This document shows, piece after piece, positions 4,771-16,916 of a stretch of 64,000 nucleotides of DNA. The notes under the pieces are model-generated. The model was not told the DNA's origin, made no database searches, and saw only the letters and a program-made list of their open reading frames with translations. The first letter of the stretch is position 1, and every line of letters begins with the position of its first letter. This stretch comes from Oceanicola sp. 502str15. GTDB taxonomy: Bacteria > Pseudomonadota > Alphaproteobacteria > Rhodobacterales > Rhodobacteraceae. The stretch is from assembly GCF_024105635.1 (NCBI RefSeq), contig NZ_WYDQ01000001.1:3162501-3226500 (forward strand), in the 5' to 3' direction. The position numbers were made by a program, and so were the translations under genes.

Positions 4771-5247
4771 TCAATCGTAGAGGCGGATGAGCAGGCGAGC
4801 CAGCGCGTAGGTTTCGTCAATCGAGAGACGGGTTCCGATCTCTTCGGCGATGGCCGCTTGATAGACCTCCCAGATCCGAGAATGCATTCCCTTGCCCTCC
4901 CCGGTGAGCCTCAGCACCTTGCCGCGTCCCGGACCAGGCGCGGCGGCGCTGGCGATCCAGCCCTCCTCTTCCAGGCGGGCGGCGTGGCGCGAGAGGGCAT
5001 ATTGCGCGGTGAAAAGCTTGCGCTCCAGCGTTGCCATGAGCAGCCCGTCCGGGCCGGCCCGCTCAAGCTCCAGCAGGATCTCGTACCAGACCGGATCTCC
5101 CACGCCGATATCGCGCAGGGCACGGGCGATGCGGGCGCCGGTGCTGCGGTGGATGCGCAGCATGTTGAACCACACACGGTTGGCGCCCATCGCCGGGTCG
5201 CCGTCATTGGCAAAGAGATCGGCGCGGCCGCTGGTCCGGTCTTCCAT
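4771..5247 (-). CDS. MarR-family transcriptional regulator
   Basis: 158 residues from ATG 5247. It has the MarR winged-helix layout: N-terminal dimerisation helix, an HTH region around GLLMATLERKLFTAQYALSRHAARLEEEGWI, and a wing-like segment around GRGKVLRLTGEGKG followed by a C-terminal helix. MarR proteins are dimeric repressors or activators released by small ligands or redox signals. It lies 73 bp downstream of the ABC transporter on the same strand and is convergent with the receptor gene, so it may regulate this iron-associated block. That is inferred from position. In-frame sequence continues upstream of 5247 into the transporter gene but has no family similarity. Confidence 0.85.
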   Translation of the reverse strand: MEDRTSGRADLFANDGDPAMGANRVWFNMLRIHRSTGARIARALRDIGVGDPVWYEILLELERAGPDGLLMATLERKLFTAQYALSRHAARLEEEGWIASAAAPGPGRGKVLRLTGEGKGMHSRIWEVYQAAIAEEIGTRLSIDETYALARLLIRLYD

Positions 5248-5320
5248 GCTGGTCCCCTTGCTGGTCTGGCCTCGTGTCTCTACCGCGCCAAGGCGCAGCG
5301 GGCCAGCCGGAAGGGCAAGC

Positions 5321-7021
5321 TCAGATGATGAGCGCGTGATAGGCAGCCTGCCGCGCTGCAAGCTCGTCGTGGGTGCCGATCTCCACGATCCGGCCCTGGT
5401 CGAGCACGATAATCCGATCCGCATCGCGGATGGTATTGAGCCTGTGTGCAATGGTCAGTGTCGTGCGCCCCTCTGAGAGCCGCGACAGGGCGGCCTGCAC
5501 CTCGCGCTCGGTGCCGCGATCGAGGGCAGAGGTTGCCTCGTCCAACAGCAGGATCGGCGGGTTTTTCAGGAAGACGCGAGCAATCGCCACCCGCTGGCGC
5601 TGGCCGCCGGAGAGCATCACGCCCCGTTCGCCCACCAGCGTATCGAGCCCATCGGGCAACTCACCGACCAGCTCCGAAAGCTGTGCATTCTCGACCGCCG
5701 CGGCAACCGCGGATTCATCCGCCCCGAGCGCCCCATAGGCGATGTTGTCCCGCAATGTGCCGCCAAACAGGAACACATCCTGGCTCACAAGTCCGACCTG
5801 CCGGCGCAACGAGGCCAGCGTCATGTCGCGGATCGGGATTCCGTCGATGCGGATCTCGCCTGCGCTCGGCTCGTAGAAGCGCGGCACAAGTGCCGCCAGC
5901 GTGGTCTTTCCAGCCCCGGAATGGCCAACCAGCGCCACCTGCTCGCCGGGCGCGATCTCGAGGTCGATGTCATGCAGCACGCCACGGGCGCCGTCATAGG
6001 CAAAGCTCACCCGCTCGAAGGTGATCGCTCCGGTCAGCGCGGGGGCTTCCCGCGCGCCCACGGCATCTGTGATCTGGGGGGCGGTATCCATCAGTTCCAG
6101 ATAGCGGCGGAAGCCCGCGATCCCGCGTGGATAGAGTTCCAGAACGGCGGCGATCTTTTCCAGCGGGCGGAAGAACACGCCGACCAGCAGCAGGAAAGCC
6201 ACGTAGGAACCGGTGCTGAGGCTGCCCTGAAACACGTAGCCCGCGCCAACCACCATCACCACGACCTGCACAACCCGCAGGCCCATGTAGTGCAGCGCTG
6301 AGACGCCCGCCATGATCCGGTAGGCCTCGAGCTTGGTGGTGCGGTAGCGTGTGTTGTCGGCCCCGAACAGTGCGCGCTCGTGCGGCTCGTTGGTAAAGGC
6401 CTGCACCACGCGGATTCCGCCGATGCTCTCTTCCAGCCGCACGTTGAAGGCGCCCACCCGGGCATAGATCGCCTGCCAGGCCCGGGTCATCCGCCCACCG
6501 TAATGGGCCAGCAACCAGGCCATGACCGGCACGATCACGAGCGTGATCAGAGCGAGGTGCGGGTGCAGCCATAGCATGAGCGCGAAGGCCCCGATGAAGG
6601 TCATGATCGCGATGAAAAGATCTTCCGGCCCATGGTGCGCGACCTCGCCGATCTCTTCGAGGTCTCGGGTTACGCGCGCCACCAGCTTGCCCGTCTCGGC
6701 GCGGTCGAACCACGACCAGCTGAGCCGTGTGAGCCTGTCGAACGCACGGGCGCGCATCTCGGTCTCGATGTTGATGCCCAGCATATGGCCCCAGTAGGTG
6801 ACAATGGCCATGAGCACGGTGTTGATCAGGTAGACCGCGACAAGCCCCGCAGCCGCCAGAACGGTAAGCGGCCAGTCGCCCTGCGGCAGCAGCGTGTCGA
6901 TGAAGCCCGCGATAGCGAGCGGAAAGGCAAGTTCCAACAGGCCCGAGGCCACGGCACAGCCGAAATCGAGCCAGAAGAGCCGCATGTGCGGGCGGTAGTA
7001 TTCGAAGAAAAGCCGGATCAT
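5321..7021 (-). CDS. ABC transporter, fused transmembrane and ATPase half-transporter
   Basis: 566 residues. Residues ~1-310 form a six-helix type IV (exporter-fold) membrane domain. Residues ~330-566 form the ATPase, with Walker A GHSGAGKTT, Q-loop (LVSQDVFLFGG), signature LSGGQRQRVAIAR, Walker B ILLLDEATSALD and H-loop IAHRLNT. Start chosen at ATG 7021 (MIRLFFEYYRP) because the further upstream frame is low-complexity. Homodimers of this type export lipids, peptides or drugs. A subset next to siderophore genes (IrtAB/YbtPQ-like) moves siderophores, and the neighbouring receptors and SIP protein suggest such a role here. No partner half-transporter is in view, so a homodimer is likely. Confidence 0.92.
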   Translation of the reverse strand: MIRLFFEYYRPHMRLFWLDFGCAVASGLLELAFPLAIAGFIDTLLPQGDWPLTVLAAAGLVAVYLINTVLMAIVTYWGHMLGINIETEMRARAFDRLTRLSWSWFDRAETGKLVARVTRDLEEIGEVAHHGPEDLFIAIMTFIGAFALMLWLHPHLALITLVIVPVMAWLLAHYGGRMTRAWQAIYARVGAFNVRLEESIGGIRVVQAFTNEPHERALFGADNTRYRTTKLEAYRIMAGVSALHYMGLRVVQVVVMVVGAGYVFQGSLSTGSYVAFLLLVGVFFRPLEKIAAVLELYPRGIAGFRRYLELMDTAPQITDAVGAREAPALTGAITFERVSFAYDGARGVLHDIDLEIAPGEQVALVGHSGAGKTTLAALVPRFYEPSAGEIRIDGIPIRDMTLASLRRQVGLVSQDVFLFGGTLRDNIAYGALGADESAVAAAVENAQLSELVGELPDGLDTLVGERGVMLSGGQRQRVAIARVFLKNPPILLLDEATSALDRGTEREVQAALSRLSEGRTTLTIAHRLNTIRDADRIIVLDQGRIVEIGTHDELAARQAAYHALII

Positions 7022-7366
7022 CAGGCGGGCGCTCGGAGCAGGGCTACAGTCCCCGTCGGGATAGGCCGTGCGGCCCCCGAGGTCCACCGATGAAGCTCGG
7101 GCTTGCAAGTTGGGTTCCGCTTATTGCAATCGGCCTGGTGGACCGGGAGGGTGGCGGCTCATGGCGAGCAACTGCGTAACTTCCGAAGGGTATGTAAGCC
7201 GTATGCGGACGCTGGAAGCGTGGCTGGCTACGTCACGTTCTCTGAAGTGAGGTCGGCGTCCGAGGCGCGATCGCGTCTTTTGGCCTGCTGATTAAAGCCA
7301 GCCTGCGATCATCTTCGCCTCGGAACACATTCAGGCGGCTTCACCCATTCAGTGAAATGCTCCCGT
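7022..7366. other. Intergenic region, 345 bp, no gene
   Basis: No supported coding frame. It must hold the promoter of the leftward ABC transporter/MarR pair and the end of the leftward dioxygenase transcript. Two TTGCAA hexamers occur at 7103 and 7124, but they are 21 bp apart and do not form the 12-bp-phased palindrome found elsewhere, so they are not called as operators. I found no convincing intrinsic terminator. Confidence 0.5.
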
Positions 7367-8485
7367 TCAGGCCTGGCGGCGTGCGAGCTGCGCGTCGAGC
7401 GCCTCGGCGAGCTGGTCTTCGCTCCAGTCTTCCTTTACGGCGCGCAACAGAAGGCCCTGCTGGCTTTCGGGCGCCAGGCCGCCGATGGGCGGATCGCTGT
7501 CAAGGTTGGTGGGGAAGGCATAGCCTTCGGCGGTTGCGGCGATGGCCAGCCGCAGCATCTCGTCATCCAGCCCCTTGAGGTGCGGGAAGACGGCTCGCGC
7601 CATGCCTGCCCGGTCGAGCGATTCCATTGCGCGCACCATGGTGGAAGAGGCTTGGAGCAGGTTGACCATCCTCACCACGTCATTGGTCCGGTTCTCCCCG
7701 GCGGCATGGAACAGTGCCGGCGAGAAGAAGATGCAATCACCCTTCTCCAGGGGCAGTTGCACGAAGTTCTCCTCAAAGTAATTGCGGAACTCCGGCAGCG
7801 CCGCAGCGGCATAGCCCTGCGGATAGACTTGGCTATAGGGCAGCAGCTTGGTCGGCCCCGCCTCGACGGGCACATTCACATGAGCGACACCGCCCTGAAG
7901 CAGGAAGAGGTGCGAGTGGCGGTGCACGGGCTCAGGATACTGGCGCAGGAGCGCGTCGGTCATGAAACCCAGATGATAATCGCGATGCGGATTCTGCGGC
8001 TTGCCACCGGGTCGAACCTGGTTGACCTGCGCCGCCATCTGGTAGCCGGGGCCGAGCCATGCGCGGTAAAGCACATCAATCGCCGGGTTGGTGACATAGC
8101 GCAGGAAGACTTCGGGCGCTTTCAGGCAAAGCTTCTGGTGCGAGTTCCAAATCCGGTCATTTGCCCCGGCCTTGGCGAAGTGATCGGCGGCAGCAATCCC
8201 GGCGGCTTTCTCCTCTTCGATGATCTCGCGGAAGACCTCCGTGGCCGCATTGATGGCATCGTTGTCCCGGAAAGCCTGCTTCAGCACCATCACGCCTGGG
8301 CCCTGCTCGAACAGCTTTGTCCACTCCGGGATCAGCCCGTCGTGTACCGCCGTTCCATCATAGACCGGAATCTTGCTCTGTATATCAACCGCACCGGGGT
8401 AATCCTCGGGGCGTGTTTCGCGCTCGACCGAGGCCTTGAAGTCGTCAAGGCTCAAGCGGTCGAGGAATGTCGCTGACTTGTTCAT
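7367..8485 (-). CDS. Phytanoyl-CoA dioxygenase-family Fe(II)/2-oxoglutarate enzyme (copy 1)
   Basis: 372 residues from ATG 8485, preceded by GGGAGGA. The double-stranded beta-helix metal triad is visible: H167-x-D169 in NPHRDYHLGF, distal H260 in PALFHAAG, and an arginine (R272 or R266) that would hold 2-oxoglutarate. These support an active Fe(II)/2OG oxygenase that would hydroxylate or oxidatively demethylate a small substrate using O2. It is clearly paralogous to the protein at 14180-15358 (shared WLGPGYQM, PGGK, HRDYHLGFMT, LPYSQ, EGYAFPTNLD), but shorter at the N-terminus. It follows a Gfo/Idh/MocA gene by 41 bp in the same direction. The substrate is unknown, and acyl-CoA hydroxylation is not implied by the family name. 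Confidence 0.88.
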   Translation of the reverse strand: MNKSATFLDRLSLDDFKASVERETRPEDYPGAVDIQSKIPVYDGTAVHDGLIPEWTKLFEQGPGVMVLKQAFRDNDAINAATEVFREIIEEEKAAGIAAADHFAKAGANDRIWNSHQKLCLKAPEVFLRYVTNPAIDVLYRAWLGPGYQMAAQVNQVRPGGKPQNPHRDYHLGFMTDALLRQYPEPVHRHSHLFLLQGGVAHVNVPVEAGPTKLLPYSQVYPQGYAAAALPEFRNYFEENFVQLPLEKGDCIFFSPALFHAAGENRTNDVVRMVNLLQASSTMVRAMESLDRAGMARAVFPHLKGLDDEMLRLAIAATAEGYAFPTNLDSDPPIGGLAPESQQGLLLRAVKEDWSEDQLAEALDAQLARRQA

Positions 8486-8526
8486 ATCTGTCCTCCCTTG
8501 ATAGCTTCCCGGCGCGTGGCCGAGGG

Positions 8527-9645
8527 TCATACGTCCAGCCAGGCCGCCTCGCGCGAGGAGGTCTGGATGGTTTCCACAAGATGCTGGATGCGCAGGCCGG
8601 CGCGGAAATTGAACGGCTCGTCAATCTCTCCGGCGATGGCCCGGGCAAAGCCAGCCACTTCGATGGCTTTCAAGTCGTTGAAGCCGAGCTGGTGGCCCGG
8701 TGCGACGCAGAAGAGCCCGTAGGGCGCATGGTCGGGGCCGGCTTCGATCCGCCGGAAGCCCTGCCGCCCCGTCCTGTCGGCAGTGTCGAAGTATTGCAGC
8801 TCGTTGAAGCGCTCCTGGCTGAAGGCGAGTGCACCCTTCGTGCCGTAAACCTCGAAGTCATGCTGCATCTTGCGGCCGGTTGCGATCCAGTTGCCCTCGA
8901 TCGAGCCGGTCGCTCCGCTTTCGAACCGCAGGAAGGCGCGGCCCACATCATCAACCTCGACCGCACGGTGGCCGCCCCGGCCATCCCGGCGGGAGTCGAT
9001 CATCGTCACACAGTCGCCCATGACGCGGGCAACGGGGCCACAGAGGTACTCCGCCGTCGCCAGCGCATGACTCCCGATGTCGGCCAGTGCGCCACCACCT
9101 GCCGGATCGTGGCGGAAGGTAAATGGGCCTGTGGCATCGGCCATGTAATCTTCACAGTGGATGCCGCGATAGCCGCGGATCTCACCCAGCTCGCCGGCCT
9201 CGATCATCGCGCGAGCCAGTTGCAGCATCGGGTTGCAGAGATAGTTGAAACCAACCTGCGTCTTCACGCCAGCCGCCTCTGCCGCCTCGGCCATCTCGCG
9301 GGCGTCGGAGGCCAGTGGGGCAAGAGGCTTTTCACAGTAGACATGTTTACCCGCAGCAATGGCGGCCAGCGCCATCTCCTTGTGAAGCGCATTGGGCGCG
9401 GTGATGCTGACGATATCGACCTCAGGGTCGTTCACCAGCTCGCGCCAATCGGTGGTTGCGCGTCCGAAGCCGAACTGGCGGGCCGCCGCTGTGGCCACGT
9501 CTTCGGTAACGTCCGCGAGGCTGTGCATTGTGAACCGGTTCGGCAGGTCGAAAACGCACTGGGCCGAGGCATAGCCGAATACATGGGCCTTGCCCATGAA
9601 TCCGGTGCCGATCAGTCCGACGTTCAGCGTGGGTTTATCCGTCAT
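8527..9645 (-). CDS. Gfo/Idh/MocA-family NAD(P)-dependent dehydrogenase (copy 1)
   Basis: 372 residues from ATG 9645. The Rossmann glycine motif GLIGTGFMGKAH lies at ~10-21, the family CEKPLA motif (EKP 105-107) has the catalytic-region lysine, and D189-IGS-H193 matches the D-x3-H substrate-site motif of inositol or sugar dehydrogenases. Members oxidise a ring or carbinol hydroxyl of sugars, cyclitols or their derivatives. It is the first full-length gene of a leftward pair with the dioxygenase and lies downstream of a TTGCAA operator cluster (9886-9933) and a possible 45-codon ORF. It is only distantly related to the second Gfo protein at 15434-16510, so the two probably act on different steps. 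Confidence 0.9.
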   Translation of the reverse strand: MTDKPTLNVGLIGTGFMGKAHVFGYASAQCVFDLPNRFTMHSLADVTEDVATAAARQFGFGRATTDWRELVNDPEVDIVSITAPNALHKEMALAAIAAGKHVYCEKPLAPLASDAREMAEAAEAAGVKTQVGFNYLCNPMLQLARAMIEAGELGEIRGYRGIHCEDYMADATGPFTFRHDPAGGGALADIGSHALATAEYLCGPVARVMGDCVTMIDSRRDGRGGHRAVEVDDVGRAFLRFESGATGSIEGNWIATGRKMQHDFEVYGTKGALAFSQERFNELQYFDTADRTGRQGFRRIEAGPDHAPYGLFCVAPGHQLGFNDLKAIEVAGFARAIAGEIDEPFNFRAGLRIQHLVETIQTSSREAAWLDV

Positions 9646-9730: not shown

Positions 9731-9868
9731 TCAGGGAAGGAGAAGTCCGCCACGTTCTTTCGTGTGATCGAACCTGGCACTGTCGTGATCGATATATTTG
9801 TCTGTCGAGCGGTACACGGCGAAGCAAACACGGCTCCGGCTCAGACTTACCGTAATGGCTTGCACCAT
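9731..9868 (-). CDS. Possible small ORF (45 aa), leader of the dehydrogenase/dioxygenase pair
   Basis: ATG at 9868 is preceded by GGGAGGAG with a 7-nt spacer, among the best ribosome-binding sites in the window. It lies directly downstream of the TTGCAA operator cluster and promoter-like hexamers on the same strand. The 45-residue product starts MVQAITVSLSRSRVCFAVYR, is basic in its first half and has no recognisable domain. It ends 85 bp before the Gfo/Idh/MocA start. It may be a genuine small protein, a leader peptide, or a remnant. Coding status is uncertain because nothing but the start context supports it. Confidence 0.35.
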   Translation of the reverse strand: MVQAITVSLSRSRVCFAVYRSTDKYIDHDSARFDHTKERGGLLLP

Positions 9869-9885: not shown

Positions 9886-9933
9886 TTGCAATGACAATAC
9901 CACTTGCAATCGCTCTTGCAACAATCATTGCAA
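9886..9933. promoter_or_regulatory. Four TTGCAA hexamers, 12-bp phased (predicted RpiR operator array)
   Basis: TTGCAA occurs at 9886, 9904, 9916 and 9928, i.e. start-to-start distances of 18, 12 and 12 bp. The last three form two overlapping copies of the palindrome TGCAA-N6-TTGCA (9905-9920 and 9917-9932). The same palindrome recurs at three other intergenic positions in this locus. It overlaps the likely leftward promoter of the dehydrogenase/dioxygenase pair. Confidence 0.6.
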
Positions 9934-10019
9934 TTCTTGCTGGGAGAGTTCACTTGATGCGCGGTGGCCCGCCTCTCTGAGGCCATTCAGAAAGTTCCGA
10001 AGCCACGCCACGAGGGCGC

Positions 10020-10913
10020 TTACGGATGGGTCACCGTCGGAATGCGCGGGCTCTCGGCGTTCTTCTGAACCCGAGCCGCAACTGCCACCGTAAGCGCCTG
10101 CGCAAGGCACATCGGCGCGGCAAGCGAGCGCGAAAAGGTATAGTCGTGCTCGGGCACCGCAAAGAGGATGTCGGCCGACTTCGCCAGCGGGCTCAAGGAA
10201 CTGTCAGAGATCGCCACGATCGGGACACCCGCAGCCTCCGCCTCCTCGACGATGTTCACCACCTCGTTGGCATAGAAGCGGAAGGACACCGCGATCAGCA
10301 GCGAATTGCTGCGCATTGTGCGGGCCATATGTGTGGCCAGCCCGCCGCCGGGATCGAGCAGGATCACCTGCTTGCCGAGCATGGTCAGGATGTAGCGCAG
10401 CAACTCTACCACAGGGGCCGAGCGGAGCTGGCCGATCAGGTAGACGCTCTCGGCCGTATCTATCATGTCGGCGGCGCGGGCGATCTCGGCAAAGTCGATC
10501 TGGTCGAGGAGTCCCTGAAGGGATGCGATGTCACGAACCACGAGATCGCGCAGAAAGCCGAACTCCGAGTGATCCGTGCGCGTCGCAAGCTCTTCCTCCA
10601 ATGCCGCCACCCGCGCCTCGAAGCCCGGGGCAGCCGTGGCCAGCCGCTTTTGGAACAGCTGTTGAAGATCCTTGAAGCCCGTGTAGCCAAGCGCCTGGGC
10701 GAAGCGGACGAAGGACGATGCGTGGATGCCGCATCGCTCGGCAATCGAGTTCACCGATTGCACGGCCACGTCGTTGGGGTTTTGTGTGAGGAAGACCGAT
10801 ATCCGCTGATAAGTCTTGCTCATGGAGTCGTGGCGTTCGTGGATCAGCCGGATCAGGCTTTCGTAGTCCTTAGGACGCGTATCCGCCCCGTCCCGCTGCT
10901 TGCCACTCTTCAT
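10020..10913 (-). CDS. MurR/RpiR-family transcriptional regulator
   Basis: 297 residues from ATG 10913, preceded by AGGAG at 7 nt. The N-terminal RpiR helix-turn-helix spans ~15-95 (SVNSIAERCGIHASSFVRFAQALGYTGFKDLQQLF), and the C-terminal SIS phosphosugar-binding domain ~125-265 (VYLIGQLRSAPVVELLRYIL, LLIAVSFRFYANEVVNI). Family members sense phosphorylated sugars or cyclitols and repress or activate catabolic operons. It is the last gene of the leftward importer operon, separated by 81 bp that contain a TGCAA-N6-TTGCA palindrome, consistent with autoregulation. I infer that it binds that palindrome throughout the locus. Confidence 0.92.
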   Translation of the reverse strand: MKSGKQRDGADTRPKDYESLIRLIHERHDSMSKTYQRISVFLTQNPNDVAVQSVNSIAERCGIHASSFVRFAQALGYTGFKDLQQLFQKRLATAAPGFEARVAALEEELATRTDHSEFGFLRDLVVRDIASLQGLLDQIDFAEIARAADMIDTAESVYLIGQLRSAPVVELLRYILTMLGKQVILLDPGGGLATHMARTMRSNSLLIAVSFRFYANEVVNIVEEAEAAGVPIVAISDSSLSPLAKSADILFAVPEHDYTFSRSLAAPMCLAQALTVAVAARVQKNAESPRIPTVTHP

Positions 10914-10965
10914 TGCCCACTCCTGCTCAAAACTGCGGGTCAGGCTATTAAACCACTCCGCGCGG

Positions 10966-10981
10966 TGCAACAATCATTGCA
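10966..10981. promoter_or_regulatory. TGCAA-N6-TTGCA palindrome upstream of the RpiR gene
   Basis: TGCAA-CAATCA-TTGCA, 53 bp upstream of the regulator's ATG. Its six-base spacer is identical to that in the site at 9917-9932. Position fits an autoregulatory operator. Confidence 0.55.
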
Positions 10982-10994
10982 GGACCGCACCTCC

Positions 10995-11774
10995 TCAAAC
11001 CGTCCCGCCCAGTGACGAGTCGAGGACCGCCAATTTTTGTCCGCCAGCCATCAGATCCTGCAATTCGCTTTCGGCGATCTCACCGGCCCGCGCCGTGCCC
11101 AGCGTGCGCCCGCGATTGAGCACGGTGAACCTGTCGCCCACCGCAAGGGCGTGGCGGATGTTGTGTGAGATGAACACCACGCCAACCCCCTGCTTCCGCA
11201 CCTTGTCGATGGTGTGCAGCACGTTCGATGTCTGGCGGACCCCAAGCGCCGAGGTCGGCTCGTCGAGGATAAGGATTTTGGCGCCGAAATGAACGGCGCG
11301 GGCAATCGCCACGGTCTGGCGTTCACCGCCGGAAAGCGTCCCTACCGCCTGCTCGGCGCTGCGAAGGTTGATGCCCATGCGCCGCATCTCTTCGACGGTG
11401 ACGTCATTGGCGCGCTTGTGATCGAAAAGCTTCACTCCCAGCCGGTTGTAGGTTGGTTCATTTCCCATGAAGAAGTTGCGGCTGACCGACATCATCGGGA
11501 TCATCCCTAGGTCCTGATACACGGTGGCAATGCCGCGCTCGATGGCGTCATGGGTGCTGTGAAACTGCACCTCCTTGCCCTCGTAGTAGATCTTGCCTTC
11601 GCTGGGGCGATGCACCCCCGACATGGTCTTGATGAAGGTCGACTTGCCCGCGCCGTTGTCACCAAGCAGGCAGTGGCACTCACCGGGCTGGAGGTCGAAG
11701 GAAACACCATCAAGCGCGATGACGGAGCCGAAGTGCTTCTTGATGTTCTCGAGTTTGAGGATTGGCTCACTCAT
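10995..11774 (-). CDS. Sugar-type ABC importer, ATP-binding protein
   Basis: 259 residues, a single ABC domain: Walker A GDNGAGKST, signature LSGGERQTVAIARAV, Walker B ILILDEPTSALG, H-loop ISHNIRHA. CUT2-family sugar importers often have a two-domain ATPase (RbsA/MglA). This single-domain form matches the FrcA-type subgroup, where it homodimerises. It starts at ATG 11774 with AGGAGA upstream and lies one base after the permease stop, so translational coupling is likely. It energises the permease at 11776-12897. Confidence 0.92.
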   Translation of the reverse strand: MSEPILKLENIKKHFGSVIALDGVSFDLQPGECHCLLGDNGAGKSTFIKTMSGVHRPSEGKIYYEGKEVQFHSTHDAIERGIATVYQDLGMIPMMSVSRNFFMGNEPTYNRLGVKLFDHKRANDVTVEEMRRMGINLRSAEQAVGTLSGGERQTVAIARAVHFGAKILILDEPTSALGVRQTSNVLHTIDKVRKQGVGVVFISHNIRHALAVGDRFTVLNRGRTLGTARAGEIAESELQDLMAGGQKLAVLDSSLGGTV

Positions 11775-11775
11775 C

Positions 11776-12897
11776 TCAGTCTCCTGCGCCGATGATGCGA
11801 CGACGAATGTAAGTGTTGGTGATCACCGCGATCAGCAGCAGGCTGCCGAGGAAGACCCGGAACAGCGAGCTTTCTGCTCCAGAGAAGAACAAGCCCTGCT
11901 GCACCACGCCAAACATGATGGCGCCCAGTCCTGCCCCGATAACCGAGCCGTAGCCGCCCGTCAGCAGAGCACCGCCAATGACCACGCAGATGATTGCCTC
12001 GAACTCCTTGAGCAGGCCGCGATCCGCCCCGGCGGAGCCGAACTCCGTAACCTGACACATGGCGAAAATGCAGGCGCAGAAGGCGGTGAACATGAACATC
12101 AGGACCTTCACGCGCTTCACCGGAATGCCGGCATACTCCGCCGCGTGGGCGTCGCCCCCAGAGGCGAAAATCCAGTTGCCGAAGCGTGTGCGGGTCAGAA
12201 GGAACTGACCGAAGATCACCAGGCCGATGGCCCAGAGGATCAGTGCGGGAACCCCACTCACAACCGGCTGCCCTTCGAAGGTGCCGCGAGTGAACGTCGC
12301 GATCCATCCCTGCTCGGCCATCCAGGTGAACACGAACTTGAAGGCCTCGCCGCCAAAGATGGGGGCCAGCCAGTCCGCCTCGGCTGCGGGTTTCATGCCG
12401 CTGAGGATGGTCTTGCTGGTCGTTGTGACCGACATGTAGATCGTCAGCCCGCGCAGGATGTAGAGAAAGGCGAGCGTTACAATGAAACTCGGCAGCTTTG
12501 TCTTGATCACCAGGAACCCGTTGAAGGCCCCGAGGGCGACCGACAGGACGAAGGCGGCGAGGATGCCCATCCACATCGGCAGGCCGTAGTGGACGTTGGA
12601 AATGGCAAGGACCATCCCCGCAAAACCGATCATGGAGCCGACGGAAAGGTCAAACTCGCCCGCGATCATCAGAAGGCAGGCCCCTACGGCAATGATCGCG
12701 AACTGCGCAGATACGACCGACCAGTTGCGGATGCCGTCCGGGTTGAACATGCCGTTGTCGGACGCGATCAATAGAAAGAAGATCAGAACGAGGATCACAC
12801 CACAGAACGAGCCCATTTCCGGGCGCATCAGGAAGCGCTGCGACAAGGATAGATCCTTGACCCTCTCGTCGGGTGCATCTGCTGTATGGTCAGTCAT
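11776..12897 (-). CDS. Sugar-type ABC importer, permease
   Basis: 373 residues, with ~9-10 hydrophobic segments and the BPD_transp_2 signature region (LMIAGEFDLSVGSMIGFAGM, residues ~80-99, and ASGGDAHAAEYAGIPVKRVK near 255-275, the EAA-like loop contacting the ATPase). Members (RbsC, FrcC, inositol permeases) dimerise in the inner membrane. It lies between the binding-protein gene (80-bp gap with a stem-loop) and the ATPase gene (1-bp gap). The single permease matches the CUT2 arrangement. The sugar or cyclitol carried is not evident. Confidence 0.92.
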   Translation of the reverse strand: MTDHTADAPDERVKDLSLSQRFLMRPEMGSFCGVILVLIFFLLIASDNGMFNPDGIRNWSVVSAQFAIIAVGACLLMIAGEFDLSVGSMIGFAGMVLAISNVHYGLPMWMGILAAFVLSVALGAFNGFLVIKTKLPSFIVTLAFLYILRGLTIYMSVTTTSKTILSGMKPAAEADWLAPIFGGEAFKFVFTWMAEQGWIATFTRGTFEGQPVVSGVPALILWAIGLVIFGQFLLTRTRFGNWIFASGGDAHAAEYAGIPVKRVKVLMFMFTAFCACIFAMCQVTEFGSAGADRGLLKEFEAIICVVIGGALLTGGYGSVIGAGLGAIMFGVVQQGLFFSGAESSLFRVFLGSLLLIAVITNTYIRRRIIGAGD

Positions 12898-12923
12898 TCT
12901 CTAAGCCTCAAACCTCGCTGTGC

Positions 12924-12955
12924 CGACAGCACCGCCCCAAGAGGCGGCGCTGCCG
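12924..12955 (-). other. Intercistronic stem-loop after the binding-protein gene
   Basis: In the minus-strand RNA, 12955-12943 pairs with 12936-12924 over about 13 bp including G-U pairs, with a 6-nt loop. No U-tract follows. Hairpins between binding-protein and permease genes commonly protect the upstream mRNA and raise binding-protein levels relative to the membrane parts. That role is inferred here. Confidence 0.5.
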
Positions 12956-12977
12956 AGTGTCGTTTCGTTGTTAAGGA

Positions 12978-13928
12978 TCAGCGGAAGGTTCCGATCAGGG
13001 ACTCCACCTGTTCGATGTTGTCCTTCGTCAGGAACCCCGGGCCGGAGTTGATGTGGTGCGGCACGCGGACGCCATAGCGGATGTAGTTGGTCAGCAGGTT
13101 TGCCGCGAGATACCCTTGGAAGAACTGCTGCTGGTCGATGGACCATTTCAGCGAGCCATCCTTCAGTGCGCCGATCATGTCATCGCTCAGTTCAAAGGAC
13201 GCCCAGTAGATCGCGCCGGCGAGACCCAGTTCTTCGAGTGCCTGCAGCGTCGGATCACCACCGTTCGGGCCGAGCGTCAGGATGGCTTCCACGTCGGGGT
13301 TGGCCTTGAGGTAGGCGAAGGCCCGGTTCTTGGCTTCGACCGGGTCGCCGCCAAGGTCGACCATGCGGTCACCAAGCTCAGGAAGACCGAGGCCCTCGGC
13401 AAAGCCGGCGCAGCGGTCGGTCAGCGGGATGTTCCCCATCTGGTGGTTGAAGCAGACGAAGTCGGACACGCCATCGGCCTTGGCACGCTCACCACCGAGT
13501 TTTCCGGCGTCAAACTCGGGCTGGCCGATGTGCATCAGTGCACCCATGCTCTCGGATTGCTCCTGGGTACCGGAGTTGACGGTGATCACGGGCATGCCGC
13601 TGTCGACTGCGCCGGTGATGGCGTCGCGCAGGGCGTCATAGTCGCCGATCGTCACGATCATGCCGTCGTAGTCGGCGGCGGCTGCCTGCTCGACGATCCG
13701 CGCCATCTGGGCGGAATCACCGTTGGGCGGGTTGCGCACATCGACTGTGATACCCAGCTCGCTCTCGGCCTGGTCGAGGGTGTTCTTGATGGTGTTCCAC
13801 CAAAAATCCTCGTCACCGGAATGGTAGATGTAAACGAGCTTCTCGCCCTCGGCCTTCGCCACGGTTCCGGCCCCGAGGCCAAGTGTGGATACGGCGGCGA
13901 TCGCCACCGCCTTGAACAATGTCTTCAT
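12978..13928 (-). CDS. Periplasmic substrate-binding protein of the sugar-type ABC importer
   Basis: 316 residues with a Sec signal peptide (cleavage expected after AKA at ~26). It is a Peripla_BP_4 fold: the first lobe opens with KLVYIYHSGDEDFWWNTI, with DYDGMIVTIGDYDALRDAI and MPVITVNSG typical of ribose/inositol/rhizopine-type binding proteins. It captures the substrate in the periplasm for the 11776-12897 permease. It is the first gene of the leftward operon, and the promoter region shared with the divergent dioxygenase carries an operator-like palindrome (14054-14069). Ligand specificity cannot be assigned by eye. Confidence 0.92.
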   Translation of the reverse strand: MKTLFKAVAIAAVSTLGLGAGTVAKAEGEKLVYIYHSGDEDFWWNTIKNTLDQAESELGITVDVRNPPNGDSAQMARIVEQAAAADYDGMIVTIGDYDALRDAITGAVDSGMPVITVNSGTQEQSESMGALMHIGQPEFDAGKLGGERAKADGVSDFVCFNHQMGNIPLTDRCAGFAEGLGLPELGDRMVDLGGDPVEAKNRAFAYLKANPDVEAILTLGPNGGDPTLQALEELGLAGAIYWASFELSDDMIGALKDGSLKWSIDQQQFFQGYLAANLLTNYIRYGVRVPHHINSGPGFLTKDNIEQVESLIGTFR

Positions 13929-14053
13929 GAATTATCCTCCCTTGCGCCGCCGCGCGCCATGACTGGCAGGCCGCTCGACGTTCTTGCTGTTTGCGCCCCG
14001 AGATCGCGATGGAGTCCCTCCCCCCGCATCGGAACCTCCAAATCTAAACACGA

Positions 14054-14069
14054 TGCAATTTTTATTGCA
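14054..14069. promoter_or_regulatory. TGCAA-N6-TTGCA palindrome in the divergent binding-protein/dioxygenase promoter region
   Basis: TGCAA-TTTTTA-TTGCA, in an AT-rich patch 126 bp from the binding-protein ATG and 111 bp from the dioxygenase ATG. On the minus strand a -35-like TTGTCA (14087-14082), a 17-bp spacer and TAAAAA (14064-14059) place the -10 exactly in the N6 spacer of the palindrome. A further ATGCAT at 14089 keeps the 12-bp phase (24 bp on). Confidence 0.6.
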
Positions 14070-14179
14070 AACATTATTCTTTGACAATATGCATTCGATG
14101 CAATGGCTCGTGAATCCCGAGGAGCTCGTGGCGCTTGTCCCCGGGCGGAGGAACGGGTTGGCAAACCAGGGAGGACACC

Positions 14180-15358
14180 ATGAAAGACGCAAATCACGTG
14201 TCGGCGGACGAACGGCGCCGGCAGGTCTGGATCAGCCGCAACGATGGCTCACTCGACGAGTTGAAGCGGATCTGCGACCGCACGACCAACTTGGAAGACT
14301 GGCCCCATGCCGTCGAGGTTGAGCAGAACGTGCTGATCTACGACGCGGCCGACGCAGCAGCACTTCAGGGCGAGGCCCGTCTTTCGCTTATGGCAGAGTG
14401 GGCCACGGTTTTCCGCAGCGGCCCCGGGGTCATCGTTCTGCGCGGCGCAATCCCTGACGAGGCGGTCATCGACAAGGCCACCGCGACCTTCTCCGACATC
14501 ATCGCAGAGGAAAAGGATGCCAGTTCGCGCGGCGACTATTTCATCACCGCAGGCTCCAACGACAGGGTCTGGAACTCGCTCCAGAAACACTGCTTGGCCG
14601 ACCCGAAAAACTTCGCCGATTACTTCAAGTTTCCAGCAATCGACATCGCCTGCCGGGCTTGGCTGGGACCGGGATACCAGATGACGGCCCAGTGCTTTCG
14701 GGTCAATCCCGGCGGCAAGGCGCAGGACGCCCACCGCGACTATCACCTCGGCTTCATGACGCCCAAGCGGCAAGAGAGCTACCCCGGCCATGTGCAGGAA
14801 CTTTCGCCGATGCTCACGCTGCAAGGTGCGGTGGCCCATATCGACATGCCGATCGAAACCGGTCCGACGCTCTATCTGCCCTACAGCCAGAATTTCTACG
14901 AAGGCTACCTCGCCTTCGAGCGCGAGGAATTCCAAGAGTATTTCAAGGAAGCCCGCTCGCAACTTCCGATGAAGAAGGGCGATGCCGTGTTCTTCAACCC
15001 CGCCGTCATGCACGGCGCCGGCGCCAATGTCACCGAAGACCGCTATCGCTTGGTCAACCTGCTGCAGGTCTCCTCGGCAATGGGCCGGACAATGGAGGCA
15101 ATCGACCGCACTTCCATGATCAAGGCGCTCTACCCCGAGCTGGTCGGCAGCGGCCTGAGCGACGACGAGCTCGATCGTGTCGTTGCGGCCAGTGCCGAGG
15201 GCTACGCCTTTCCGACAAACCTCGATACCGACCCCGCGGTTGGCGGAATGTCACCCAAGACCCACGCAGACATGATGCGCGAAGCGCTCGCCAAGCGCAC
15301 AAGCGCGGATGAGTTCGCCGCGCTGATCGACACGCTGGATGTGCGCCGCAAGGCTTGA
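14180..15358 (+). CDS. Phytanoyl-CoA dioxygenase-family Fe(II)/2-oxoglutarate enzyme (copy 2)
   Basis: 392 residues from ATG 14180, with GGGAGGA five bases upstream. Metal-binding residues are visible as H185-x-D187 (AQDAHRDYHLGF), H278 (PAVMHGAG) and a 2-oxoglutarate-binding arginine (R290 or R288). It is paralogous along its whole length to the protein at 7367-8485, with an extra ~20 N-terminal residues. Residues just before the HxD motif differ (CFRVNPGG here, NQVRPGG there), suggesting a different substrate or position of attack. It is divergent from the importer operon across a shared operator region and ends at a strong terminator, so it is monocistronic. The physiological substrate is unknown. 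Confidence 0.88.
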   Translation: MKDANHVSADERRRQVWISRNDGSLDELKRICDRTTNLEDWPHAVEVEQNVLIYDAADAAALQGEARLSLMAEWATVFRSGPGVIVLRGAIPDEAVIDKATATFSDIIAEEKDASSRGDYFITAGSNDRVWNSLQKHCLADPKNFADYFKFPAIDIACRAWLGPGYQMTAQCFRVNPGGKAQDAHRDYHLGFMTPKRQESYPGHVQELSPMLTLQGAVAHIDMPIETGPTLYLPYSQNFYEGYLAFEREEFQEYFKEARSQLPMKKGDAVFFNPAVMHGAGANVTEDRYRLVNLLQVSSAMGRTMEAIDRTSMIKALYPELVGSGLSDDELDRVVAASAEGYAFPTNLDTDPAVGGMSPKTHADMMREALAKRTSADEFAALIDTLDVRRKA

Positions 15359-15382
15359 GCACAGCTTGAGATCAAGTAAGCG

Positions 15383-15416
15383 CGGCCACGCATTTCCGTG
15401 GCCGGGCTTTTCTTTT
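15383..15416 (+). terminator. Intrinsic terminator after dioxygenase copy 2
   Basis: An 8-bp GC-rich stem (CGGCCACG 15383-15390 with CGTGGCCG 15397-15404), 6-nt loop, then CTTTTCTTTT. It is well placed 25 bp after the dioxygenase stop, and would also separate it from the convergent dehydrogenase gene. Confidence 0.8.
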
Positions 15417-15433
15417 GCCGGGGTGTTGCGGGC

Positions 15434-16510
15434 TCAGAGCAGCAGGCGCTTGTCGGTCAGCGGAAACTCATGAACCATCTTCCGCGTCGGATGTGTCGGA
15501 CGCGGCGGGGTATTCACCTTCTGCGGCTGTCCAGTCTCGGCGGCCTTCTCGATGGCCAGAAGAGCACGCATGTCCGCGAGCCCCTCCCCCCCATCGGCCT
15601 CGGGCGGGGTGCCCCCAATGATGCAGTTGGAGAAGTAGGCCGTCTGCCCCGCAAAGTGATCGGTGTGCATGAAGGTCTCGAAGGCGATCTCTTCGCCATT
15701 GCGCCGCTGCATCGCCATCGGGGTCTCGAAGCGAAATCCCGGATCAAGCGTGAGGCTGCCCTTGGTCCCGACCACGGTGTAGCAGTCCCGGCTGTCACCC
15801 CCGAAACTGGCAATGAATTGCGCCAGTCGGCCTTCGGGGAATTTGAGCGTTACGGCAATGCTCTCTTCGACCTCGGCAAAACGCGCATCCCCATTTCCAT
15901 GGCTGCGCACCGCGGTCACCTCCTCCGGTTCGGCGCCAAACACATGGCGCACCGCGTTCAGACAATAGACCCCGATATCCTGCAACGGCCCGCCCCAATG
16001 GCTCGCCTTCAGGCGGTGATTGCCCGGTGCCGCGAAGAAGGAGAAGATTGCGCTGAAGATACGCGGGTCGCCGATCTCGCCAGCCCGGATGCGCTCGAGC
16101 ACGTCCACGGTGCCGGGCTCGTTGTGCAGCCGATAGGCCGTCATCAGGTAAAGGCCGTTTTCTTCCGCCGCCGCAATCATCGCCTCGGCATCCTCAATGT
16201 TCGTCGCCAAGGGCTTCTCGACAAGGATGTGCTTGCCCGCCCGCGCCGCCCGGATTGTGTAGTCGGCGTGCATGGAGTTGGGCAGCGCCACGTAAACCGC
16301 ATCGCAGACATCGGCGGCGAGCATCTCGTCGTACTGCTCGTAGCTATAGACTGCCGGCACCTCGTGAAACTCTGCCAGCCTGCGGGCCTTTTCCGTCGAG
16401 CCGGAAACGATTGCGGTCATCTCGGAGTTCTCTGTCAGCCCCGCTCCCGGCATGAAGGCCTCTTGCGAGATCCAGCCGGCGCCGACAACGGCGTAACGAA
16501 TTTTCTGCAT
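15434..16510 (-). CDS. Gfo/Idh/MocA-family dehydrogenase (copy 2, glucose-fructose oxidoreductase-like)
   Basis: 358 residues from ATG 16510 (GGAGAG upstream). Rossmann motif VVGAGWISQ at ~8-16, EKP motif at 98-100, and the GGPLQDIGVYCLNAVRH segment (D178) that is characteristic of the glucose-fructose oxidoreductase/1,5-anhydrofructose reductase branch rather than the inositol-dehydrogenase branch. It would oxidise or reduce a sugar or cyclitol with NAD(P). Convergent with the second dioxygenase, and 131 bp downstream of its own TGCAA-N6-TTGCA site and promoter-like sequence, it joins the same predicted regulon as a single-gene unit. Confidence 0.9.
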   Translation of the reverse strand: MQKIRYAVVGAGWISQEAFMPGAGLTENSEMTAIVSGSTEKARRLAEFHEVPAVYSYEQYDEMLAADVCDAVYVALPNSMHADYTIRAARAGKHILVEKPLATNIEDAEAMIAAAEENGLYLMTAYRLHNEPGTVDVLERIRAGEIGDPRIFSAIFSFFAAPGNHRLKASHWGGPLQDIGVYCLNAVRHVFGAEPEEVTAVRSHGNGDARFAEVEESIAVTLKFPEGRLAQFIASFGGDSRDCYTVVGTKGSLTLDPGFRFETPMAMQRRNGEEIAFETFMHTDHFAGQTAYFSNCIIGGTPPEADGGEGLADMRALLAIEKAAETGQPQKVNTPPRPTHPTRKMVHEFPLTDKRLLL

Positions 16511-16840
16511 TTTGCTCTCCGATATCCTCCAATGGCGAAGTCACCCGATCTCGGCCTGGGCCGGCACACTCTCCATCGACCTCCGCGACGCATGCGGCCC
16601 TTGAGGACCAGCGTGATCCAAACCGGCGACAGGCAATTCATTGCAACATTTATTGCAGTTTATTTTGCGTGTCAATTTATCAACCGATCGCCTCACGCCT
16701 CTGCTTGCTCCAGCGATCAAGGAACTGGGTTAACGGCCCCATGCCGTATCGTGAAGTGATGGGATCGTCGCACGGCCCAAGCACCGCAAATCACCGCCCA
16801 CAAAGGACGGTGGCTAAAGCAGATACTTGCCTGAAGAATC
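16511..16840. other. 330-bp intergenic region, regulatory
   Basis: No coding frame is supported. It carries the promoter and operator of the dehydrogenase at 15434-16510 (see 16642-16657) and the downstream flank of the tRNA. Nothing else was recognised. Confidence 0.5.
16642..16657. promoter_or_regulatory. TGCAA-N6-TTGCA palindrome and promoter of dehydrogenase copy 2
   Basis: TGCAA-CATTTA-TTGCA. A related TTGCGT at 16665 continues the 12-bp phase (16641, 16653, 16665). On the minus strand TTGACA, a 17-bp spacer and TAAATG put the -10 hexamer in the N6 spacer, the same geometry as at 14054-14069. Confidence 0.6.
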
Positions 16841-16916
16841 TGGTGCCGCTGAAGGGACTCGAACCCCCGACCCCATCATTACGAATGACGTGCTCTACCA
16901 GCTGAGCTACAGCGGC
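16841..16916 (-). tRNA. tRNA-Thr, anticodon CGU
   Basis: A 76-nt cloverleaf on the minus strand. Acceptor stem GCCGCTG/CAGCGGC, D-arm GCTC..GAGC, anticodon stem CGTCA/TGATG with loop TTCGTAA giving anticodon CGT (reads ACG, Thr), T-arm with TTCGAGT loop, discriminator A and an encoded CCA (16843-16841). The T-stem contains two G-U pairs. It stands alone between the catabolic locus and hemY. Confidence 0.95.

Follow-up and report, generated by a model that had tools for sequence, protein, structure and literature searches.

IolR, an RpiR-family protein of Caulobacter crescentus and rhizobia, controls inositol catabolic and ATP-binding cassette (ABC) importer genes through an N6-spaced palindrome; its published motif is GGAA-N6-TTCC, two quoted iolC-promoter sites start with TGGA, and mutating one of them raises expression (PMC2597717). 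Here we describe a related palindrome, TGCAA-N6-TTGCA, and an RpiR-family regulator (10020..10913, minus strand) in a 64,000-nucleotide stretch of Oceanicola sp. 502str15 (contig NZ_WYDQ01000001.1, positions 3,162,501 to 3,226,500; hereafter the window, from whose first base coordinates are counted). A sequence-only reading of the window had proposed the palindrome as the shared operator of an RpiR regulon, pointing out that relatives such as IolR use N6-spaced palindromes, which holds for the published GGAA-N6-TTCC motif (PMC2597717). The comparison of genomes strongly supports this proposal, with predicted binding: the palindrome is conserved near orthologues of the regulator, the only regulator among the annotated gene families that these loci widely share. 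We consider it highly likely that the palindrome is the operator of RpiR 10020–10913, a sister of IolR; operator and regulon are very probably real.

All five exact copies claimed for the window are present at the positions given, against a mean of 0.05 copies and a maximum of 1 in 100 dinucleotide shuffles of the window. Nor is it spread at random through the genome (two contigs, 4,442,269 bases), in which an exact-match scan returned the same five copies, against one for the pattern read backwards. Looser scans with the bare pattern are uninformative (30 matches in the window at up to two mismatches, 21.5 expected; 59 in the genome at up to one mismatch, 49 in the control; 177 of 198 genomes positive in a family-wide scan) because they ignore the interior of the site, and a refined consensus, TGCAAYDWWHRTTGCA, derived from orthologous loci in other genomes, separates better. 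Applied to the 4.44 Mb genome with one mismatch allowed, it yields five sites, all in the regulon, against none in the backwards control: four are window palindromes and one is new (C1:3154323-3154338), about 8 kb to the left of the window.

The four window sites are solid, matching both the exact palindrome and the refined consensus. The sequence TGCAACAATCATTGCA occurs twice, at 9917..9932, upstream of dehydrogenase 1 and dioxygenase 1, and at 10966..10981, a putative autoregulation site 52 nucleotides (nt) upstream of the rpiR start (ATG at 10913). The site TGCAATTTTTATTGCA (14054..14069) lies between the divergent importer genes and dioxygenase 2, 125 nt from the binding-protein gene and 110 nt from dioxygenase 2, and TGCAACATTTATTGCA (16642..16657) stands 131 nt upstream of dehydrogenase 2. 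Together with the 260–287 nt that separate the leftmost palindromes from dehydrogenase 1 (ATG at 9645), these distances confirm the claimed placement upstream of the named genes. The overlapping palindrome TGCAATCGCTCTTGCA (9905..9920) is exact at the ten fixed bases, but as a separate, full operator it is doubtful: it shares its right half with 9917–9932, its interior (TCGCTC) misfits orthologous sites, and the refined pattern does not find it at up to two mismatches. Scans for promoters and terminators gave numbers close to those expected by chance (2 against a mean of 2.0, and 9 against 7.1).

Conservation was examined in 69 loci obtained by a scan with the RpiR protein (one genome per species, GTDB; 57–82% identical in the best segment; 1.14 Mb). 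The exact palindrome occurs there 82 times, in 48 loci. Other spacings from N0 to N14 yield 0–8 matches each, and half-sites altered symmetrically at a single base yield 0–11 per variant. The interior of the 82 sites is non-random, position 6 being mainly T or C and the centre mainly A or T. The refined consensus, whose interior was learnt from the same loci so that its counts there are partly circular, has 68 exact and 68 one-mismatch sites, against 0 and 1 in reversed sequences; an exact site is present in 45 loci, and a site with at most one mismatch in 63. Judged against longest reading frames, many sites stand directly before rpiR, in the gap between iolD and iolG, or ahead of an importer gene. 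Operators near RpiR orthologues are found in many Alphaproteobacteria and some Beta- and Gammaproteobacteria. Eight Bradyrhizobium loci hold the orthologue; seven of the eight have iolD and iolE homologues, and seven carry the TGCAA operator at up to one mismatch, with the aldolase part not found within the flanks covered.

RpiR is the only regulator among the annotated widely shared gene families of these loci, some smaller families having been left unannotated. This bears on whether another protein might bind the palindrome, with RpiR a mere neighbour: by Pfam the region also encodes a LacI-family regulator to the left of the window (L122:5914-6918) and a MarR protein (4771-5451). Neither gene adjoins a refined site at up to two mismatches, and sister RpiR proteins, discussed below, have a site of the same architecture in which one base is changed. 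Whereas the centre here consists of two A/T bases, that of LacI operators is usually CG, with four inner bases. We therefore regard LacI or MarR as very unlikely binders, less likely than RpiR.

The regulon claim is supported for the window genes but was incomplete, since the regulon extends beyond the window to an inositol-type module. The fifth genome site (L122:11323-11338) lies between divergent iolG (L122:10295-11356, minus strand, longest frame; 411.8 bits in NCBIfam) and iolD (L122:11350-13275, plus strand; 818.1 bits), and the module's IolE scores 382.9 bits, all three over cut-off. Although the longest frame of iolG runs over the site, its family match does not start until residue 19, so the true iolG start is probably downstream. 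Neighbouring genes encode homologues of aldehyde dehydrogenase, HpcH/HpaI aldolase, 2-hydroxyacid dehydrogenase and a short-chain dehydrogenase/reductase (SDR). Two arrangements recur in many orthologous loci: SDR, iolE, iolD; and iolG, aldehyde dehydrogenase, aldolase, hydroxyacid dehydrogenase, Gfo/Idh 1, rpiR. With flanks of at most about 9 kb a side, and less than that in several loci, the numbers of loci with each gene are minimum values: IolD is found in 50 of the 69 loci, IolE in 48, hydroxyacid dehydrogenase and Gfo/Idh 1 in 44 each, aldolase in 43, aldehyde dehydrogenase and SDR in 41 each, and IolG in 40. At least one of IolD, IolE and IolG is present in 55 loci, and 36 combine IolD with aldehyde dehydrogenase, aldolase and hydroxyacid dehydrogenase.

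Two further sets of sequences lie outside the learning set. Among 295 genomes of the same family, 36 contain an exact refined site, namely 9 of 18 with an RpiR orthologue (66% identical or more) versus 27 of 277 without (Fisher p 5e-5; 2e-4 when the own genome is left out). Of the eight other orthologue genomes that scored positive, six have the site within 8 kb of rpiR on the same contig and two (G056, G112) have it on a different contig. For plasmids, 14 loci were taken from 76 records; 12 of them carry a site with no more than one mismatch, and none of the 14 does when its sequence is reversed. Among them are two Pantoea loci (L131, L138) whose RpiR proteins, about 50% identical, also have His at position 64 (see below).

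A sister control of 12 loci with distant RpiR homologues (28–33% identical) connects this operator to that of IolR. Exact TGGAA-N6-TTCCA occurs in seven of the 12, and in every one of these the interior of one or more sites agrees with the refined pattern, so that the operators of the two groups differ by one base per half-site. Five of the seven have an iolC-kinase gene beside the regulator and one has iolG over cut-off; the seventh gave no match in the one frame scanned. RpiR 10020–10913 thus appears to be a sister protein of IolR whose operator has changed, a new variant on the known IolR type.

The shared family, N6 architecture and inositol-type targets would also suit a canonical IolR controlling ordinary myo-inositol catabolism. 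The operators and genes speak otherwise, and we judge this alternative very improbable. Homologues beside iolC are 28–31% identical to RpiR 10020–10913 and carry TGGAA-N6-TTCCA, whereas the 69 orthologous loci contain only two such sites against the 82 of TGCAA type, and the window operator is not of the GGAA-N6-TTCC type. In IolR-type loci iolC adjoins the regulator, while in the TGCAA-type loci IolB and IolC were found in 1 of 69. The genome does have iolB, iolC/J, iolE and iolG on its second contig, but the 18 kb around this iolB/iolC set contain no refined site at up to two mismatches.

The two types also differ at residue 64 of the regulator: each of the 51 loci with an exact refined TGCAA site has His there, and each of the eight with a matching TGGAA site has Pro or Ala, the eighth being a second RpiR on contig L073 (111 rows compared, 52 with neither site). 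In the predicted model this residue falls just before the recognition helix, residues 65–74 (mean predicted local distance difference test, pLDDT, 79.8; predicted template modelling score, pTM, 0.61). By an offset of 14, assuming a gap-free helix-turn-helix (HTH) and chain index equal to residue number, it would correspond to Ser50 of Streptococcus pneumoniae NanR, which touches a backbone phosphate in the DNA complex (PMC12713135). Four family genomes (G068, G104, G225, G247) hold the RpiR orthologue and a second homologue about 31% identical, and both regulatory systems may coexist there.

Several points weigh against the proposed regulon or limit its reach. RpiR presence in the 69 loci (L006-L074) is by construction, since they were found through RpiR, and six of them have no refined site at up to one mismatch. 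IolD, IolE and IolG are all absent from the DNA covered in 14 of the 69, five of which span about 18.8 kb. Several sites fall within longest reading frames, some recurrently inside iolG. Half of the orthologue-bearing family genomes (9 of 18) are without an exact refined site, an argument against a mismatch-free site being universal; one-mismatch sites were sought only in the short stretches flanking rpiR, and 4 of 17 other genomes had a site at up to one mismatch. Two of the 14 plasmid loci also have no such site, one (L135) without annotated neighbouring inositol genes and one (L132) without annotation. Some family genomes and plasmids belong to species already represented among the 69 loci, so that the tests on them are not fully independent. 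Only two clades underlie the residue-64 match, which therefore comes close to being a single evolutionary event; the residue is a candidate determinant.

Besides the exact copies, a one-mismatch operator recurs about 350 bp into iolG (L006:3822, L029:3842, L033:3802, L067:3346), possibly a second site in the coding part.

The sequence-only reading had also suggested that TTGCAA units at 12-bp phase indicate cooperative binding. The window does show three in-phase units at 9904–9933 and three at 16641–16670, two of the latter degenerate. As a general feature, though, such phasing finds no support: around the 82 orthologous sites there was a single case of an additional TTGCAA-like unit at a distance of 12 bp from the palindrome, compared with 9 at 11 bp, 8 at 17 bp and 7 at 29 bp, and the 12-bp signal is the palindrome itself. 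A cooperative tandem array is accordingly improbable. Between the left-hand operators and dehydrogenase 1 there is a 45-residue reading frame (9731-9868, minus strand) with its ATG at 9868, 36 nt downstream of the operator array and behind a GGAGG-type sequence; leader peptide and remnant are candidate readings.

RpiR 10020–10913 belongs to the RpiR/MurR family, with an HTH_6 domain at 45.3 bits (cut-off 28.3) and an SIS domain at 51.3 bits (cut-off 25) in Pfam, and is one of two HTH_6 proteins found in the genome. Its model matches RccR, NanR and MurR in the PDB (model pTM 0.61). The S. pneumoniae NanR in DNA complex 9DQN has the same two domains, HTH and SIS, and under the assumptions given above its Ser50, Arg56 and Arg67 would fall on H64, R70 and K81; NanR differs in being an activator that recognizes an 18-bp near-palindrome. 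Its phosphate ligands are Ser179, Ser181 and Thr184 (PMC12713135). In alignments to 4IVN and MurR these correspond to S210, R212 and A215, so that the Ser-x-Ser plus Thr/Ser loop of phosphosugar sensors of the NanR, MurR and RccR type is replaced by S210-F-R212-F-Y-A215. R212 and A215 are kept in 84 of 84 orthologues, and one 57%-identical relative has Gln212. As the module contains no iolC, an unphosphorylated effector is a fair guess; this sensor argument is weak, because the IolR-like homologues are likewise degenerate in the phosphate loop.

We propose that RpiR most likely binds TGCAAYDWWHRTTGCA as a dimer and would repress its own gene, the sugar ABC importer, both PhyH dioxygenases and both Gfo/Idh dehydrogenases of the window, as well as the divergent iolG and iolD-iolE-SDR promoter outside it. 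Repression would be lifted when a catabolic intermediate occupies the SIS domain. What the pathway imports is most likely a modified inositol, such as O-methyl-inositol or a rhizopine-like compound; the dioxygenases and dehydrogenases would convert it towards inosose for IolE and IolD. The site positions, their exclusivity in the genome, their conservation, the gene families and the one-base difference from the IolR-type site are observed; binding, repression, effector and substrate are what we infer from sequence comparison, and the pathway order would follow from enzyme families and general chemistry.

That the substrate is a modified inositol is hinted at by the rhizopine-like binding protein, the PhyH dioxygenases and other oxygenase parts near rpiR in orthologous loci. 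The periplasmic sugar-binding protein (12978..13928, minus strand; Pfam Peripla_BP_4) has as its nearest NCBIfam model the rhizopine substrate-binding protein NF052284, at 245.9 bits against a cut-off of 420, and its matches among solved structures are general sugar binders. Further likenesses to rhizopine (moc) catabolism are the Gfo/Idh enzymes and a MocE-family ferredoxin in the orthologous Jiella locus (165.9 bits, over the cut-off of 136.15), beside a ferredoxin-reductase-like protein under cut-off. The moc system differs in that PhyH dioxygenases here replace its oxygenase, the binding protein here is under cut-off, and the regulator here is an RpiR protein; that of moc is the GntR-type MocR.

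The two dioxygenases are of the PhyH-type Fe/2-oxoglutarate class: H185, D187, H278 and R290, which we take to be the His-x-Asp…His triad and the 2-oxoglutarate-binding Arg, are invariant in 29 aligned sequences including both window proteins. A fold search returned general 2-oxoglutarate dioxygenases and no substrate clue. Few orthologous loci contain PhyH proteins (observed in L008, L009 and L056) and other oxygenase parts occur elsewhere, so the oxygenase front end may be exchangeable while the iol core and regulator stay. On a Rhizobium leguminosarum plasmid (L129), proteins annotated as desaturases stand near rpiR; they have no NCBIfam match at 1e-10.

A broader possibility, which we offer tentatively and would not yet favour, is a second widespread inositol regulatory system parallel to IolR, with its own operator code, perhaps read through His instead of Pro or Ala at the start of the recognition helix, a kinase-free route, and a sensor without phosphate loop that reads an unphosphorylated intermediate. 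In such a route inosose would pass through IolE and IolD to 5-deoxyglucuronate, which aldehyde and 2-hydroxyacid dehydrogenases would oxidise before HpaI aldolase cleavage into malonate semialdehyde and hydroxypyruvate. The oxygenase front ends, of PhyH type in the window and of MocE type in other loci, would be interchangeable and would supply the route with methylated or amino inositols. A full-text literature search, most matches of which were judged from listings, gave no recognised report of a TGCAA-N6-TTGCA operator or of a kinase-free module. The kinase-free gene set points to an inositol route for which that search gave no description, and two paralogous regulators whose operators lie one base apart per half-site would allow changes of specificity among RpiR proteins to be tested cleanly.

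From left to right, the window locus comprises PhyH-family Fe/2-oxoglutarate dioxygenase 1 (7367..8530, minus strand; Pfam PhyH 95 bits); Gfo/Idh/MocA dehydrogenase 1 (8527..9645, minus strand; Pfam), whose longest frame reaches 9705 and which resembles levoglucosan and inositol dehydrogenases under the NCBIfam cut-off; RpiR, the predicted binder; the sugar ABC importer ATPase (10995..11774, minus strand; Pfam ABC_tran) and permease (11776..12897, minus strand; Pfam BPD_transp_2); the binding protein; dioxygenase 2 (14180..15358, plus strand; Pfam PhyH 96.6 bits, 2-oxoglutarate-dioxygenase fold); and Gfo/Idh/MocA dehydrogenase 2 (15434..16510, minus strand; Pfam). A tRNA-Thr (16841-16916) follows the dehydrogenase 2 region.

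The two halves of the regulon are separated by two gene groups that look like insertions: a MarR and ABC exporter pair (4771-7108) and an iron-siderophore-type ABC importer (L122:15113-18858). Within the module region, the LacI-family gene is divergent from a second sugar importer, beside which is a D-chiro-inositol-type dehydrogenase, under cut-off. Rhizobium daejeonense (L126:6516-9950) and Paracoccus ferrooxidans (L139:5521-8967) each have an annotated pyruvate carboxylase gene separating Gfo/Idh 1 from rpiR. The RpiR relatives on the Pantoea plasmids adjoin the same iolD/iolE/aldolase set, and similar RpiR proteins are listed on Klebsiella plasmids (H15, H19).

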